DNA of 64,000 nt, taken from positions 744,001 to 808,000 of the forward strand of contig NZ_CP055481.1 of the NCBI RefSeq assembly GCF_013705725.1, written 5' to 3'. Within the stretch, counting starts at the first letter, position 1. Each line of letters starts with the position of its first letter. Shown here piece after piece: positions 1,867-56,351 of this stretch. The DNA is from Klebsiella sp. RHBSTW-00484 (GTDB taxonomy: Bacteria; Pseudomonadota; Gammaproteobacteria; Enterobacterales; Enterobacteriaceae). The notes beneath the pieces were generated by a model. The model did no database searches and was not told where the DNA came from. It saw nothing but the letters and a program-made list of their open reading frames with translations. The position numbers and the translations under genes are program-made.

Positions 1867-1911
1867 ATAAAAAAGCGGTGCCGAACGGTCCCCTCTCCCC
1901 TGCGGGGAGAG
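1867..1911. repeat. Left copy of palindromic repeat (interrupted by IS)
   Basis: This 45-bp segment matches 11806-11850 at 41 of 45 positions in the same orientation. It includes a hairpin of CCCTCTCCCC type. Its continuation (GGTTAGGGTGAGGGG) lies beyond the IS at 3112-3126. A further palindrome of the same type (CCCTCACCCC...GGGGAGAGGG) begins at about 1821. The repeat class resembles the high-copy REP-like palindromes of enterobacteria; no family name is claimed. Confidence 0.8.
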
Positions 1912-1926
1912 ATACCGTCTTGCCGG

Positions 1927-2889
1927 TTATCCTGCAAGTGGTATTTCAGCGTTAAATTCATGCCCGGATTTCACCACACCATAAGCCAGCTGCAGTAATT
2001 TCCTCATTCCTGCACACACTCGCTCTTTCCCTGTCTTACCCCGGGCTGCAAGCCTTTCCATCAGGTTTTTCACCACCTTATTGCATCTTCCTGCCACTAC
2101 CGCTGGCATATACAGTGCGCTACGCAGCTCTGCATGGCCCACTTTCGACAGCCTGCTTTTCCCTTTCCACATCCCTGACTCACAACGACGAGGATTCAAA
2201 CCAGCATACGCCACCAGTGCCTTGCTGTTGCTGAACCGTCGCAGATTTCCTGCGAACGCCAGCAGGCTCACACTCAGCATGTCTCCTATTCCGGGGATAC
2301 TTTTCAGTAGCTCCCGGTCCCGCTTCAGGTCTGGGTTATCATCGATATGCCGGTTGATTTTATTGCGGGTTTCTTCAATCAGCTCATCCAGCATCGTAAC
2401 GTGTTCATTCAGGGAAGGAACGATGACTTCATCTGCTGCCTCAAGGCGGTTCATCTCCATCTGACGCATCTCTTCCAGGTTACGCAGGTGGCGTACCAGA
2501 GCCGTCAGTTGTCGTTCGCTCAGCGGCGCAGGATGCCAGGGGGCCGGCTGATACAGAGCGCAGTAGCGCGCTATCAGCGCCGCGTCGCTTTTGTCCGTTT
2601 TATTGCGGGTCAGTTCAGTGTTTGCGAACGCATGGATACGTGCCGGGTTTTCAAGGCTGACGCAGCAGCCATTATCGGCCAGCAGGGTGGCCAGTTCAGT
2701 GCTGTAGCAACCTGTTGCCTCCATGCAGACATGACAGTGACCAAAACGCGCCAGCCAGTTCAGAAATTCGCGGCATCCGGCTGGGGTATTGGCGAATTTT
2801 TTGGTTTTGTACTTCTGGTTTGGCAGCAGGACAGCAACGTCGAATTTGAGTTTGGCGATATCAACGCCGACAGGGACAAGATTCATCAT
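1927..2889 (-). CDS. IS110-family transposase (DEDD/serine recombinase)
   Basis: This 320-residue protein has the length typical of IS110/IS621 enzymes. The N-terminal RuvC-like domain shows GVDIAK with D10, MEATG with E57, and NKTDKSD with D99 and D102, the DEDD set. The C-terminal Tnp domain has the helix-hairpin motif SIPGIGDM at about 197, NPRRCESG with candidate catalytic Ser238, and RLSKVGH at about 246. All key residues are present and the frame is intact, so it is probably active or recently active. Family members use the bridge RNA to join donor and target. The ATG lies just downstream of the non-coding RNA region of the element. Confidence 0.93.
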   Translation of the reverse strand: MMNLVPVGVDIAKLKFDVAVLLPNQKYKTKKFANTPAGCREFLNWLARFGHCHVCMEATGCYSTELATLLADNGCCVSLENPARIHAFANTELTRNKTDKSDAALIARYCALYQPAPWHPAPLSERQLTALVRHLRNLEEMRQMEMNRLEAADEVIVPSLNEHVTMLDELIEETRNKINRHIDDNPDLKRDRELLKSIPGIGDMLSVSLLAFAGNLRRFSNSKALVAYAGLNPRRCESGMWKGKSRLSKVGHAELRSALYMPAVVAGRCNKVVKNLMERLAARGKTGKERVCAGMRKLLQLAYGVVKSGHEFNAEIPLAG

Positions 2890-2914
2890 GGTACTCCGTA
2901 ACCTTATGAATATT

Positions 2915-3105
2915 ATCGCCGGACCATCCTTATATGTGGGTGCTCAGGGCACAGGATACCGTTCGGTCTTGAGGCGACAGGGAAACAGGTTACCGGGGCA
3001 TAATCTCTCCCGCGGGCTCAGGGGCTCCAGGGCTGGGTGATGCTCACCGGTAACCTCCCGATGATCAGTCGGGGATCTTCTCCGCCGGAACGGAGAAGGT
3101 CAAGA
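2915..3105 (-). ncRNA. Predicted bridge RNA of the IS110-family element
   Basis: The region upstream of the transposase (read on the minus strand) folds in series. First comes a hairpin CTTCTCCG/CGGAGAAG (3077-3098), then CCCGA/TCGGG (3057-3073). Next is a 10-bp stem AGGTTACCGG/CCGGTAACCT (3047-3056 with 2987-2996) enclosing a 50-nt loop, then a GTGC/GCAC hairpin (2940-2952). In the large loop GGGAGAG (3005-3011) is complementary to the right target half CTCTCCC, and AGCCCT (3029-3034) resembles the left half ending AACCCT. Downstream ACGGTATC (2955-2962) equals the transposon right end, and ATAAG (2929-2933) complements its left end CTTAT. This is the arrangement of target- and donor-binding loops. 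Exact RNA ends are guesses. Confidence 0.75.
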
Positions 3106-3113
3106 CATAAGGG

Positions 3114-4706
3114 TTAGGGTGAGGGGGCAACAGGCGCACGGCGCGCCAGCCCCGGCGCCTGCCACATTGACGTCGTCAATCCGCTATCCACCAGACCGAG
3201 CTGCTCGGCGTATACCGACTGCCATTTCACCATCATCTCCTGATACAGCTCGCGATGCGCCGGGTTTGGCGTGAATACCCGATGCCAGCTCACCAGCTTT
3301 TCTCCCGCCGCAGCCATATCGCTGTACAACCCGGCCCCGGCCCCGGCGGCAATCGCGCAGCCCAGTGCGGTCGCTTCACGAACCTCGGGCACCCGCACCG
3401 GCAGCCCGGTCACGTCGCTAAGTATCTGGCTCCACAGCGCCCCTTTTGAACCGCCGCCAGCGAACACCAGGCTGTCGAACTTCACGCCGGAAAACTGCGA
3501 AATCTGCGCCAGATTGCAGGCGGAAACAATCGCCGCGTTCTCTTCCAGCGCGCGGAATAGCGTCGCTTTATTACATTTTTCCGGGTCGATGGAGAGGTTA
3601 ATAAACGACGGCGCGGCGTGGTACCACTGCTTAAAATGCATGGCATCGGAGAAAATGGGCATCACCCCGTGGGAGCCCGCTGGAACGCGGCTGGCCATCT
3701 CTTCCAGCAGCGAATAAGCATCCACGCCGAGTCGCTCGGCAACCAGCTTCTCTTCCGCACAGAAGGCATCGCGGAACCAGCGCATGGTCAGACCGGTAAA
3801 AAAGCTGATGGATTCCGCCTGCGCCATACCGGAGATCACGTGCGGGTTAACGCGGATATTCATCTCCGGGTCGGTGCGCACTTCCGGCAGATTGACCACC
3901 TGCTGCCAGAAAGTACCGCCGAGCACCGCAGTCTGCCCGGCGCGCACCACGCCAAGGCCGAGACAGCCGAGCTGGACGTCGCCGCCGCCCATCACCACCG
4001 GCGTGCCTGCGCGCAGTCCGCTTTGTTGGGCCGCCGCATCGGTCACCGCGCCGAGCACGGTACCGGTCTCTTTCACCGGCGAGAGAATATCGGCCCGCAA
4101 CCCGGCCATATCCAGCAGTGCCGGACGCCAGTCGCGGCTGAACAGGTCGAGCATGCCGGTGGTCCCGGCGTTTGAAGGATCGACCGCCAGCTCACCGGAG
4201 AGCTTCGCCGCCAGCCAGTCGCTAATCATGGTGATGGTTGCCGCTTTGCGGTAGATATCCGGGCGATGGTGGGCTAGCCACAGCAGGCGCGGCATAGCGC
4301 TGAGCGCCAGAGTCTGCCCGGAAACGCCGTAAACCTCGGATTCAAAACGGTAGTCGTGGATCTCTTTAAGCTCCGCCACCTCGCGGCTGGCGCGAGCGTC
4401 AACGTTGGCGCAGGCCCAGATGGCCTCGCCGTTGCGGTCGTAAAGCACGATGCCTTCGCGCATTGAACAGCAGGCCACGGACTGAATATCCGCCGGGGAG
4501 AGATGGGCGGTGGTCAGTGCCTGACGGATGCACTGGCAGGCTAGCTGCCAGTTGAGGGTAAGATCGAACTCCATCGAGCCGGGAACGTTGTCGATGCTCA
4601 GGTGTTTCCATTCGGCCTGGCCGACCGCAATCTGGCGGCCATTGAGATCGAAAATCACCGCCCGAATGCTGCCGGTCCCGGCATCTAACGCTAACAGGTA
4701 ACTCAT
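3114..4706 (-). CDS. lsrK: Autoinducer-2 kinase LsrK
   Basis: A 530-residue FGGY-family kinase, the same length as E. coli LsrK. The N-terminal phosphate-binding motif [16 protein letters not shown] lies at residues 5-20, [16 protein letters not shown] around 238-253, and the adenosine motif [15 protein letters not shown] near 420. It phosphorylates imported 4,5-dihydroxy-2,3-pentanedione (AI-2) in the cytoplasm. Phospho-AI-2 then inactivates the repressor LsrR. It follows lsrR by 37 nt in the same direction. The last residues (APVAPSP) and the stop codon are encoded by the palindromic repeat, and the IS core lies two bases after the stop. Confidence 0.95.
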
Positions 4707-11659: not shown

Positions 11660-11866
11660 GGGAAATGTCCCCTCACCCCGGCCCTCTCCCCGGGGGGAGA
11701 GGGGGAAAAACGGAGCCGTCGGTTAAATAGGGTGCGGGGAGAGGGAGAAAAGCGGAGCCGTCGGTTAAATAGGGTGCGGGGAGAGAGGGTAAAGCAGAGC
11801 AGTGGATAAAAAAGCGGCGCTGAACGGTTCCCTCTCCCCTGAGGGGAGAGGGTTAGGGTGAGGGGA
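11660..11866. repeat. Cluster of palindromic repeats between lsrG and ygjK (right flank of lsr block)
   Basis: The interval contains CCCTCACCCC...GGGGAGAGGG palindromes. A 42-bp unit starting CGGAGCCGTCGGTTAAATAG is repeated in tandem (11711-11752 and 11753-11794, a few differences). The unit at 11806-11865 matches the split copy at 1867-1911 plus 3112-3126 in the same orientation. The final 10-bp-stem hairpin (11830-11852) lies between convergent lsrG and ygjK and probably also terminates transcription. Confidence 0.8.
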
Positions 11867-54647: not shown

Positions 54648-56351
54648 TTAAAACAGGAAATAACGTTGCGCCATCGGTAACACGTCCGCCGGTTCGCTGG
54701 TGATCAGTTCGCCGTCGATACGCACCTCGTAGGTTTGCGAATCAACGGTAATATTGGGCAGCAGTCCGTTGTGGCGCATATCGGTTTTTTGTACTGTGCG
54801 GCAGCCTTTCGCTACTGCCGTCATGCTGTGCAGGTTCAGCTTTTCAGCGACGCTGTTTTCCGCCGCCGCCTGCGACAGGAAGGTCAAACGGCAGTGGTGA
54901 CGAGCGCTACCCAGCGCGCCGAACATCGGGCGGTAATGCACCGGCTGCGGCGTCGGGATGGAAGCGTTGATATCGCCCATCGGCGCGATGGCGATCATGC
55001 CGCCTTTGACCACTGTCGCCGGTTTCACGCCGAAGAACGCCGGGGACCACAGCACCAGATCCGCCAGTTTGCCCGCTTCAATCGAACCGACTTCATGGGC
55101 GATGCCGTGGGTCAGCGCCGGGTTAATGGTGTACTTGGCGATATAGCGCTTCACGCGGTAGTTATCGTTATCCCCGTTCTCTTCCGCTAACGGGCCGCGC
55201 TGGACTTTCATGCGGTGCGCCACCTGCCAGGTACGCAAAATCACTTCGCCGACGCGGCCCATGGCCTGCGAATCGGACGAGGTGAGGGAGAACGCGCCGA
55301 GGTCGTGCAGGACGTCTTCTGCGGCGATGGTTTCCCGACGAATACGCGATTCGGCAAACGCCACGTCCTCGGCGATATCCGGGTCGAGGTGATGGCAAAC
55401 CATCAGCATGTCCAGGTGCTCGTCAATGGTGTTGACGGTATAGGGCAGCGTCGGATTGGTCGACGACGGCAGAATATTGGGATGCGCGCAGGCGGTAATA
55501 ATATCCGGCGCATGGCCGCCGCCCGCGCCTTCGGTATGGAAAGTGTGGATAGTGCGCCCGCCAATAGCCGCCAGTGTATCTTCCACGAAGCCGGACTCAT
55601 TGAGGGTGTCGCTGTGCAGCGCGACCTGAACATCCATCTCGTCGGCGACGGTCAGCGCGCAGTTGATTGCCGCCGGTGTTGCGCCCCAGTCTTCGTGGAT
55701 TTTCAAGCCGATAACGCCTGCCGCAACCTGCTCGCGCAGCGCATCCGGGTTCGAACCGTTGCCTTTGCCCAACAGGCCGATGTTGACCGGCAGGCTGTCT
55801 GCCGCCTGCAGCATTCGCGAGATGTACCACGGCCCTGGCGTACAGGTTGTGGCGTTAGTTCCCGCCGCCGGACCGGTACCGCCGCCGATCATCGTGGTGA
55901 CGCCGGAGACCAGCGCCTCTTCCGCCTGTTGCGGGCAGATCCAGTGAATATGGGTGTCGACGCCGCCTGCGGTGACGATCTTACCTTCCGCAGCAATAAT
56001 TTCCGTCGCCGCGCCGATAGGGATCGTGACGTTGGGTTGAATGTCCGGATTTCCCGCTTTACCGACAGCGAAGATCCGTCCGTCTTTGACGCCGATATCG
56101 GCTTTGATGATCCCCCAGTGATCGATAATCAGCGCGTTGGTCAGCACCAGATCCACACATTCGGCGGCAAGCATCTGCCCCTGGCCCATACCGTCGCGGA
56201 TCACTTTGCCACCGCCAAATTTGACCTCTTCGCCGTAGGTAGTGAGATCGTCTTCAACCTCGATCCACAGCTCGGTGTCCGCCAGGCGCACTTTGTCGCC
56301 GGTGGTGGGGCCGAACATATCGGCCCAGGCCTGACGCGAAATCTCACTCAT
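54648..56351 (-). CDS. ureC: Urease alpha subunit UreC
   Basis: 567 residues from ATG 56351 ([18 protein letters not shown]), overlapping the ureB end by 8 nt. Amidohydrolase-type barrel with nickel ligands in [10 protein letters not shown], the carbamylated Lys in [35 protein letters not shown], the flap His in [14 protein letters not shown] and the Asp in [14 protein letters not shown]. It hydrolyses urea to ammonia and carbamate. All catalytic residues are present. Confidence 0.98.

Follow-up and report, generated by a model that had tools for sequence, protein, structure and literature searches.

Natural reprogramming of guide RNAs and the covariation of guides with their targets have already been reported in general terms (PMC11208160, PMC11187229), the relevant neighbour here being IS621 of E. 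coli (Durrant et al. 2024, PMC11208160; Hiraizumi et al. 2024, PMC11208158), for which five recombinase residues (D11, E60, D102, D105 and S241) are reported as essential and in which, according to the same report (PMC11208158), the right donor guide (RDG) pairs through A157-U158 and C162-G165, with a non-canonical pair at G161 and U159/U160 flipped out. The other piece of background is a chromosomal repeat, TMECO (earlier PIT), presented by Holder et al. 2015 (PMC4666352) as an intrastrand triplex motif that is frequent in certain enterobacteria and comes in two types according to its second loop (type A, TTA; type B, CCG), with five inverted pairs in E. coli K-12, in each of which a type A member is joined to a type B one; its authors state that transposase or integrase remnants were never found around TMECO sites. 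The 64-kb stretch of Klebsiella sp. RHBSTW-00484 analyzed here (the window) very probably harbors a bridge-RNA-guided IS110-group element which targets an arm of exactly this repeat and has been mobile recently, and, with reprogramming and covariation already on record, this element joins a known kind.

The element, intact and IS621-related, lies on the minus strand at 1912-3109 (left end 3109, right end 1912) and measures 1198 bp between two CT cores, the one on the left-end, bridge RNA side at 3110-3111 (-), with CCTAACC (3112-3118) as the left target half ahead of it, and the one on the right-end side at 1910-1911 (-), with CTCCC (1905-1909) as the right target half behind it. Its recombinase gene (1927-2889, -) encodes 320 aa with the DEDD_Tnp_IS110 (PF01548) and Transposase_20 (PF02371) domains, that is, a DEDD RuvC-like domain together with a domain holding the catalytic serine, and the protein matches the NCBIfam equivalog for IS110 above its cut-off as well as the PDB entries of IS621 (8wt6, E 6.4e-79) and ISCro4 (9t56, E 2e-78). 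Once an offset of two additional residues in the chain of the PDB entry is taken into account, D10, E57, D99, D102 and S238 align with D11, E60, D102, D105 and S241 of IS621, and all five are invariant in a three-way protein alignment. The non-coding ends are markedly unequal, with 220 nt upstream of the recombinase gene (the leader) vs. 15 nt downstream of it. Rfam, searched at gathering thresholds, gave no match at the element; elsewhere in the window, at 55922-56199 (+), it gave one to the 5' ureB sRNA family (81.9 bits).

Ten copies of the element, all identical and all 1198 bp between the cores, are present in the genome (6.9 Mb, 28 contigs), and the observation made in a preliminary description of this DNA is borne out. 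Over 5.9 kb, the DNA is 86% identical to K. pneumoniae and K. aerogenes records, in keeping with the genus. The identity of the copies is what makes recent movement probable. Every copy sits in the same repeat and at the same base, CCCTCACCC-NNN-CC|CT|CTCCC, with outer flanks that differ from copy to copy and a CT core on both sides of each, the variable triplet being TAA at five sites (L001-L005), CAG at one (L006) and CGG at four (L007-L010). The repeat itself is the published TMECO/PIT one, its type A and type B loops (TTA and CCG) appearing as the TAA and CGG variants on the C-rich strand, which reads CCCTCACCC-(TAA or CGG)-CCCTCTCCC-loop-GGGAGAGGG; nine of the ten sites are therefore of type A or B, the tenth being the CAG one, and, while CCCTCACCC-NNN-CC and CTCCC are found in 10/10, several of the sites have an imperfect far arm. 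When the repeat is followed by eye from one side of the insertion to the other, L003 and L007 correspond to the E. coli motifs no. 7 (type A mm) and no. 3 (type B mm) as given in PMC4666352. The preliminary description was thus right in that the target is a different palindrome from the E. coli REP, the repeat not being a new one, as it had been described in E. coli as TMECO/PIT. It had also taken CCTAACC-CT-CTCCC to be the pattern into which other copies should have inserted, which holds for 5/10 copies only, the other five being found in CCCGGCC (four) or CCCAGCC (one), so that this expectation is partly contradicted, by variants that are close to the actual guide. Among the matches listed in a literature search that covered papers outside subscription, none linked the TMECO/PIT repeat with insertion sequences.

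Unoccupied targets are plentiful: the genome holds 68 free sites of the 21-nt pattern (TAA 27, CGG 21, CGA 8, CAA 4, TAG 4, CGC 2, AAA 1 and CAG 1) vs. 0 for the reversed control pattern, and the window contains two free 14-nt sites vs. 0.03 expected, namely a type A arm CCTAACC-CT-CTCCC at 11844-11857 (-) and a type B arm CCCGGCC-CT-CTCCC at 11677-11690 (+). The surrounding region (11661-11865) is a cluster of triplex-motif arms, in which these two intact sites, one of either type, lie in inverted orientation. The two common types seem to be used equally (TAA 5/32 and CGG 4/25 occupied; p = 1.0), and the types used at all (TAA, CGG, CAG) are occupied at 10/59 sites vs. 0/19 for the other types (p = 0.11).

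The copy in the window lies between lsrK (3114-4706, -; named after database records) and a gene which, going by its protein sequence, we take to be fadH. In this gap, the element is absent and the repeat region uninterrupted in all six of the relatives read (L127-L132; 18 relatives were found): at this place L131 reads CCCCCTCACCCTAACCCTCTCCCCGCAGGGGAGAGGGG, just as the flanks of the window copy do on the two sides of the element, L127 and L128 retain CCTAACCCTCTCCCC as well, L129 has CCCTCGCCC ahead of it, and L130 and L132 have one base altered (CTAAGCCT). Insertion at the CT cores has cost no target sequence and has brought no duplication beyond the core, as seen both in the copies of this genome and in the empty sites. 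The reading frame of lsrK runs into the triplex motif, its stop codon being the TAA that forms the loop in the type A repeat (3112-3118), and, as the insertion took place two bases downstream of it, lsrK has been left whole.

Whether the leader encodes a structured RNA was approached with a covariance model built from the leaders of 13 relatives (alignment A2; hand-picked, one per guide type, the window being excluded), the consensus of which comprises a 5' hairpin, a second hairpin, a target loop and a donor part. This held-out model has a single match in the 64 kb, at 2923-3110 on the minus strand (155.6 bits, E 1.2e-44; model positions 1-187), with the guides of the window element falling in its loops, which is where the preliminary description had placed the RNA and agrees with the check it had proposed; the same model also detects the IS621 leader in an E. 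coli record (L070, E 1.2e-5). Among the 49 pairs of the 13-leader alignment, 18 have changed on both sides, none of the five measures was reached by any of 500 shuffles, and sliding the pairing partners brings the share of paired cells down from 95% to 33-49%. No pair with changes on both sides was seen in the donor-part helices 6 and 7 of that alignment, for which covariation accordingly lends no support. Folded alone, the leader of the window element does moderately better than shuffles (z -2.26), with 7/200 shuffles folding equally well. As in a bridge RNA, the predicted fold has two internal loops, one for the target and one for the donor, the 5' sides of which match the bottom strand and the 3' sides the top strand.

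The four guides, each present exactly once in the 220-nt leader, are all found on the minus strand. On the 5' side of the target-binding loop lies the left target guide (LTG; CCCAGCC+CT, CCCAGCCCT; 3029-3037), and on its 3' side the right target guide (RTG; GGGAG+AG; 3005-3011), which pairs 7/7 with CT+CTCCC, just as the preliminary description had claimed for GGGAGAG and the right target half plus core. The left donor guide (LDG; ACGGTATC; 2955-2962) is identical to the right end of the element (8/8, the first core base included), which that description had likewise recognized, and the RDG (ACATATAAG; 2929-2937) forms 7/7 pairs with the left end (CT+TATGT) if two bases are skipped. Two of the earlier guide assignments needed amendment: AGCCCT, thought to be one wobble away from AACCCT, gives way to a guide of 9 nt (CCCAGCC+CT), with one mismatch and one wobble to CCTAACC, and the RDG is longer than the ATAAG given there, and bulged. 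The RTG matches all ten sites perfectly beyond the core (5/5). The LTG is perfect (7/7) for one site in ten, the CCCAGCC one of L006, and scores 6/7 (one mismatch) with CCCGGCC and 5.5/7 (one mismatch and one wobble) with CCTAACC. How readily such matches turn up by chance was estimated from 50,000 first-order Markov sequences of the composition of the leader: an RTG alone appeared in 1,999 of them (4%), an LTG alone in 6,168 (at most one mismatch to the CGG form) or 20,588 (at most two to the TAA form), i.e., 12-41%, an LDG in 183 and an RDG in 415, the ordered LTG-RTG pair (CGG form, at most one mismatch) in 49, and the ordered LDG-RDG pair in none. On their own, the target guides carry little weight as evidence and the donor guides more, and the ordered pairs hardly arise by chance.

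A further comparison comes from the loci of relatives (Fukatsuia, Sodalis, Pectobacterium, Crenothrix, Xenorhabdus and others), the leaders of which are the same or similar and hold different target loops, these loops mostly matching their own flanks. The set compiled for this purpose comprised 48 rows and 18 guide types with 16 distinct left guides (right-half scores being at hand for 10 types), guide positions being fixed by the alignment with no per-locus optimization; each row is a different combination of left flank, guides and right half, so that the same left flank occurs in more than one of them (L020, L021, L034), IS621 was entered by hand from L070, the nested copies L020 and L024 were retained, and one guide type consists of nested Fukatsuia rows in which no right guide is readable. 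A locus with too short a leader (L113) and homologues whose second hairpin falls off the search pattern (L040, L043, L052, L056 and other distant loci) were left out. The left guide-target match amounted to 5.57/7 vs. 3.12 permuted (sd 0.25) and the right one to 3.95/5 vs. 1.96 permuted, both with p<=1e-5 in 100,000 permutations that take the guide types as independent, though related elements are not fully so; leaving out the Serratia siblings described below, p was 1e-5 (left) and 2e-5 (right). No foreign guide outscored the own one for the left target in 16/18 types (ties allowed; exceptions G161 and G204b, the latter scoring 2/7 with its own target) and for the right target in 9/10 types. 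G161 (L076, L122) has a left half of 2/7 at two different sites (CCTTAAC and CTTCAAC) and a right half of 5/5. Half of the Fukatsuia rows (6/12) score at most 3.5/7 on the left, some of them being nested or rearranged copies. At ~1235-1270 of L024 (Candidatus Fukatsuia), the left flank holds, a few bases ahead of the junction, a left target guide belonging to a different copy (TTTGCGCC-CT), which looks like an insertion of the element into the guide sequence of its own kind, and L020 shows a related nested arrangement.

The Serratia-type siblings sit in the same repeat as the window element. The genome G391, which has the genus label of G135 and is therefore probably a Serratia, has six copies (82% protein identity) with the left guide CCTAACC, all six of which sit at CCTAACC (four) or CCCAACC (two) with the right half CTCCC, and, of its 265 sites of the 21-nt pattern, 111 are TAA and 0 CGG, the remaining ones being mostly CAA among the 100 of 265 sites listed. 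Serratia silvae (L062) carries a shortened remnant copy with the guide TCTAACC and the flank TCTAACC (the same 85 bases as in L112 of G135), meaning that the single guide base separating it from G391 is changed in its site too. The programmable left guide spans exactly the TTA/CCG second loop by which type A and type B motifs are divided, and the CAG triplet of the window guide is one mismatch away from either the TAA or the CGG type. This might tempt one to think that the target guide follows the repeat alleles of its host, CAG being evened out for both arms in Klebsiella and TAA suiting the Serratia-type genome, a reading that we consider doubtful, if worth keeping in mind. Over the ten sites of the window genome, the own guide (CAG) and the Serratia guide (TAA) tie with a mean of 5.85/7 each, which lowers the odds of such a reading, the worst site scoring 5.5/7 for CAG vs. 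4.5/7 for TAA. The notion of CAG as a clear optimum was rejected, as other triplets rank higher when all 64 are scored against the 78 sites (68 free and 10 occupied): CAG comes 5th by mean Watson-Crick pairing, 11th at <=1 non-Watson-Crick pair, 3rd at <=2 and 7th with wobbles free, with TAA at 2, 2, 21 and 13 under the same four criteria, and the reading is, for that reason, offered as a conjecture. A further genome, G417, holds 247 CGG-type and 209 TAA-type exact sites, apparently a very large pool of unused targets, and a leader search in it gave only a 24-base match.

Could the recombinase, or a triplex-prone structure of the repeat, be what selects the target, with the RNA match being incidental, as has been proposed for REP-landing IS3-family elements? 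All ten copies do sit in a repeat which forms an intrastrand triplex in vitro (PMC4666352), and REP targeting occurs outside IS110 too (PMC1525189). According to the former report, however, double-stranded DNA gave no triplex signal and support in vivo was likewise absent, and proteins that are ~55-61% identical and share the same RNA scaffold go to unrelated targets mostly matching their own loops, just as the one-base guide difference between the Serratia siblings is mirrored in their sites. Selection by the recombinase or by the structure of the repeat is quite unlikely in our view. The repeats being numerous and similar, one might also suppose that homologous recombination or gene conversion between them, rather than RNA-guided transposition, has spread the copies; yet all of the junctions fall at the same base, with a CT core on both sides and outer flanks that differ per site, and the orthologous gaps of relatives read without any element sequence, which leaves this explanation very little room.

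An even less credible alternative would be that the element belongs to the IS1111 group, with its RNA downstream. The DEDD recombinase is indeed common to both groups (PMC11208160), but the long non-coding end with the RNA model (2923-3110) lies upstream and the short right end downstream, and the sole subterminal inverted repeat seen in the element is one of 5 bp (AAGAC/GTCTT), as opposed to the 7-17 bp and the downstream RNA of IS1111-group members. The double-guide logic of IS621, which the preliminary description had read into this locus, is upheld by the single kind of target, the empty sites, the held-out model, the catalytic residues and the guide matching across relatives.

Under the RNA-guided, IS110-group reading preferred here, the element would be excised as a circle, in which the right end, the CT core and the left end are joined, and this junction would complete promoter-like boxes (TTGC-N19-TATCTTAT) that would drive transcription of a ~180-nt bridge RNA. 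In all 11 distinct subgroup junctions printed, TATCTTAT or TATCTTGT (spanning the core) is preceded, at a distance of 19 bases, by a TTGC box, and the IS621 junction has TTGCAG as well; the boxes match the sigma-70 consensus poorly (3/6 and 4/6, by eye), and we regard them as a putative promoter of the bridge RNA, the start of which may be guessed from their position to lie near 3101-3104 (-). The recombinase would then be bound by the bridge RNA, the donor loop (ACGGTATC / ACATATAAG) reading the circle junction and the target loop (CCCAGCC+CT / GGGAG+AG) reading CC-NNN-CC-CT-CTCCC, i.e., the TMECO/PIT repeat arm, and recombination at the CT cores would leave the element inserted.

As to its spread, no match to the element DNA was found by megablast in 72,556 plasmid records or in 20,395 E. 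coli records, and no relative was confirmed in viral contigs, where two DNA patterns gave 0. A DNA search of 99 genomes matched three, the own one included, with the two others at 65-68% only; a genus search yielded 1/20 genomes (the own one) at E<=1e-80, and a family search 10/295 at E<=1e-60 and 2/392 at E<=1e-140. A protein search gave 2,775 proteins at E<=1e-60, the best 120 of which include relatives of 94% and 90% on short contigs and of 85% and 84% in records named Cedecea and Enterobacter. Ten sites with mismatches, along with siblings in which one to three guide bases are changed, amount to a natural mismatch-tolerance experiment for bridge RNAs, a mobile element is now known for a triplex-motif repeat reported without transposase or integrase remnants, and the compact recombinase-guide set (320 aa, ~180 nt) lends itself to comparison with IS621 and ISCro4.

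Set against what has been described, the element shares 47% protein identity with IS621-named records and, judging by the published accounts of IS621 (PMC11208160, PMC11208158), the same catalytic residues, the CT core, an RNA in the left end with the target loop before the donor loop, a target in a chromosomal repeat, and a bulged RDG geometry (a 2-nt bulge here), differing in the repeat, in the guides, and in an extra hairpin (CCCCGACUGAUCAUCGGG) before the target loop in its subgroup, which could not be seen by eye in the L070 leader. The seekRNA elements ISEc21 and ISEc11, as portrayed by Siddiquee et al. 2024 (PMC11187229), also have an RNA with one match per target strand, but go to other targets, ISEc11 being, moreover, of the IS1111 type with its RNA downstream. 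The TMECO/PIT motif (Holder et al. 2015, PMC4666352) is the landing site of the element and not a part of it. Both G391 (82% protein identity) and the truncated S. silvae copy (L062/L112) have the RNA scaffold, the TM/PIT repeat and the right guide of the window element, and differ in the left guide, which is CCTAACC or TCTAACC vs. CCCAGCC here. What this locus adds to the known systems is a target repeat that has been identified, a single guide with ten natural sites, and a pair of siblings in which a single-base change of the guide is matched by that of the site.
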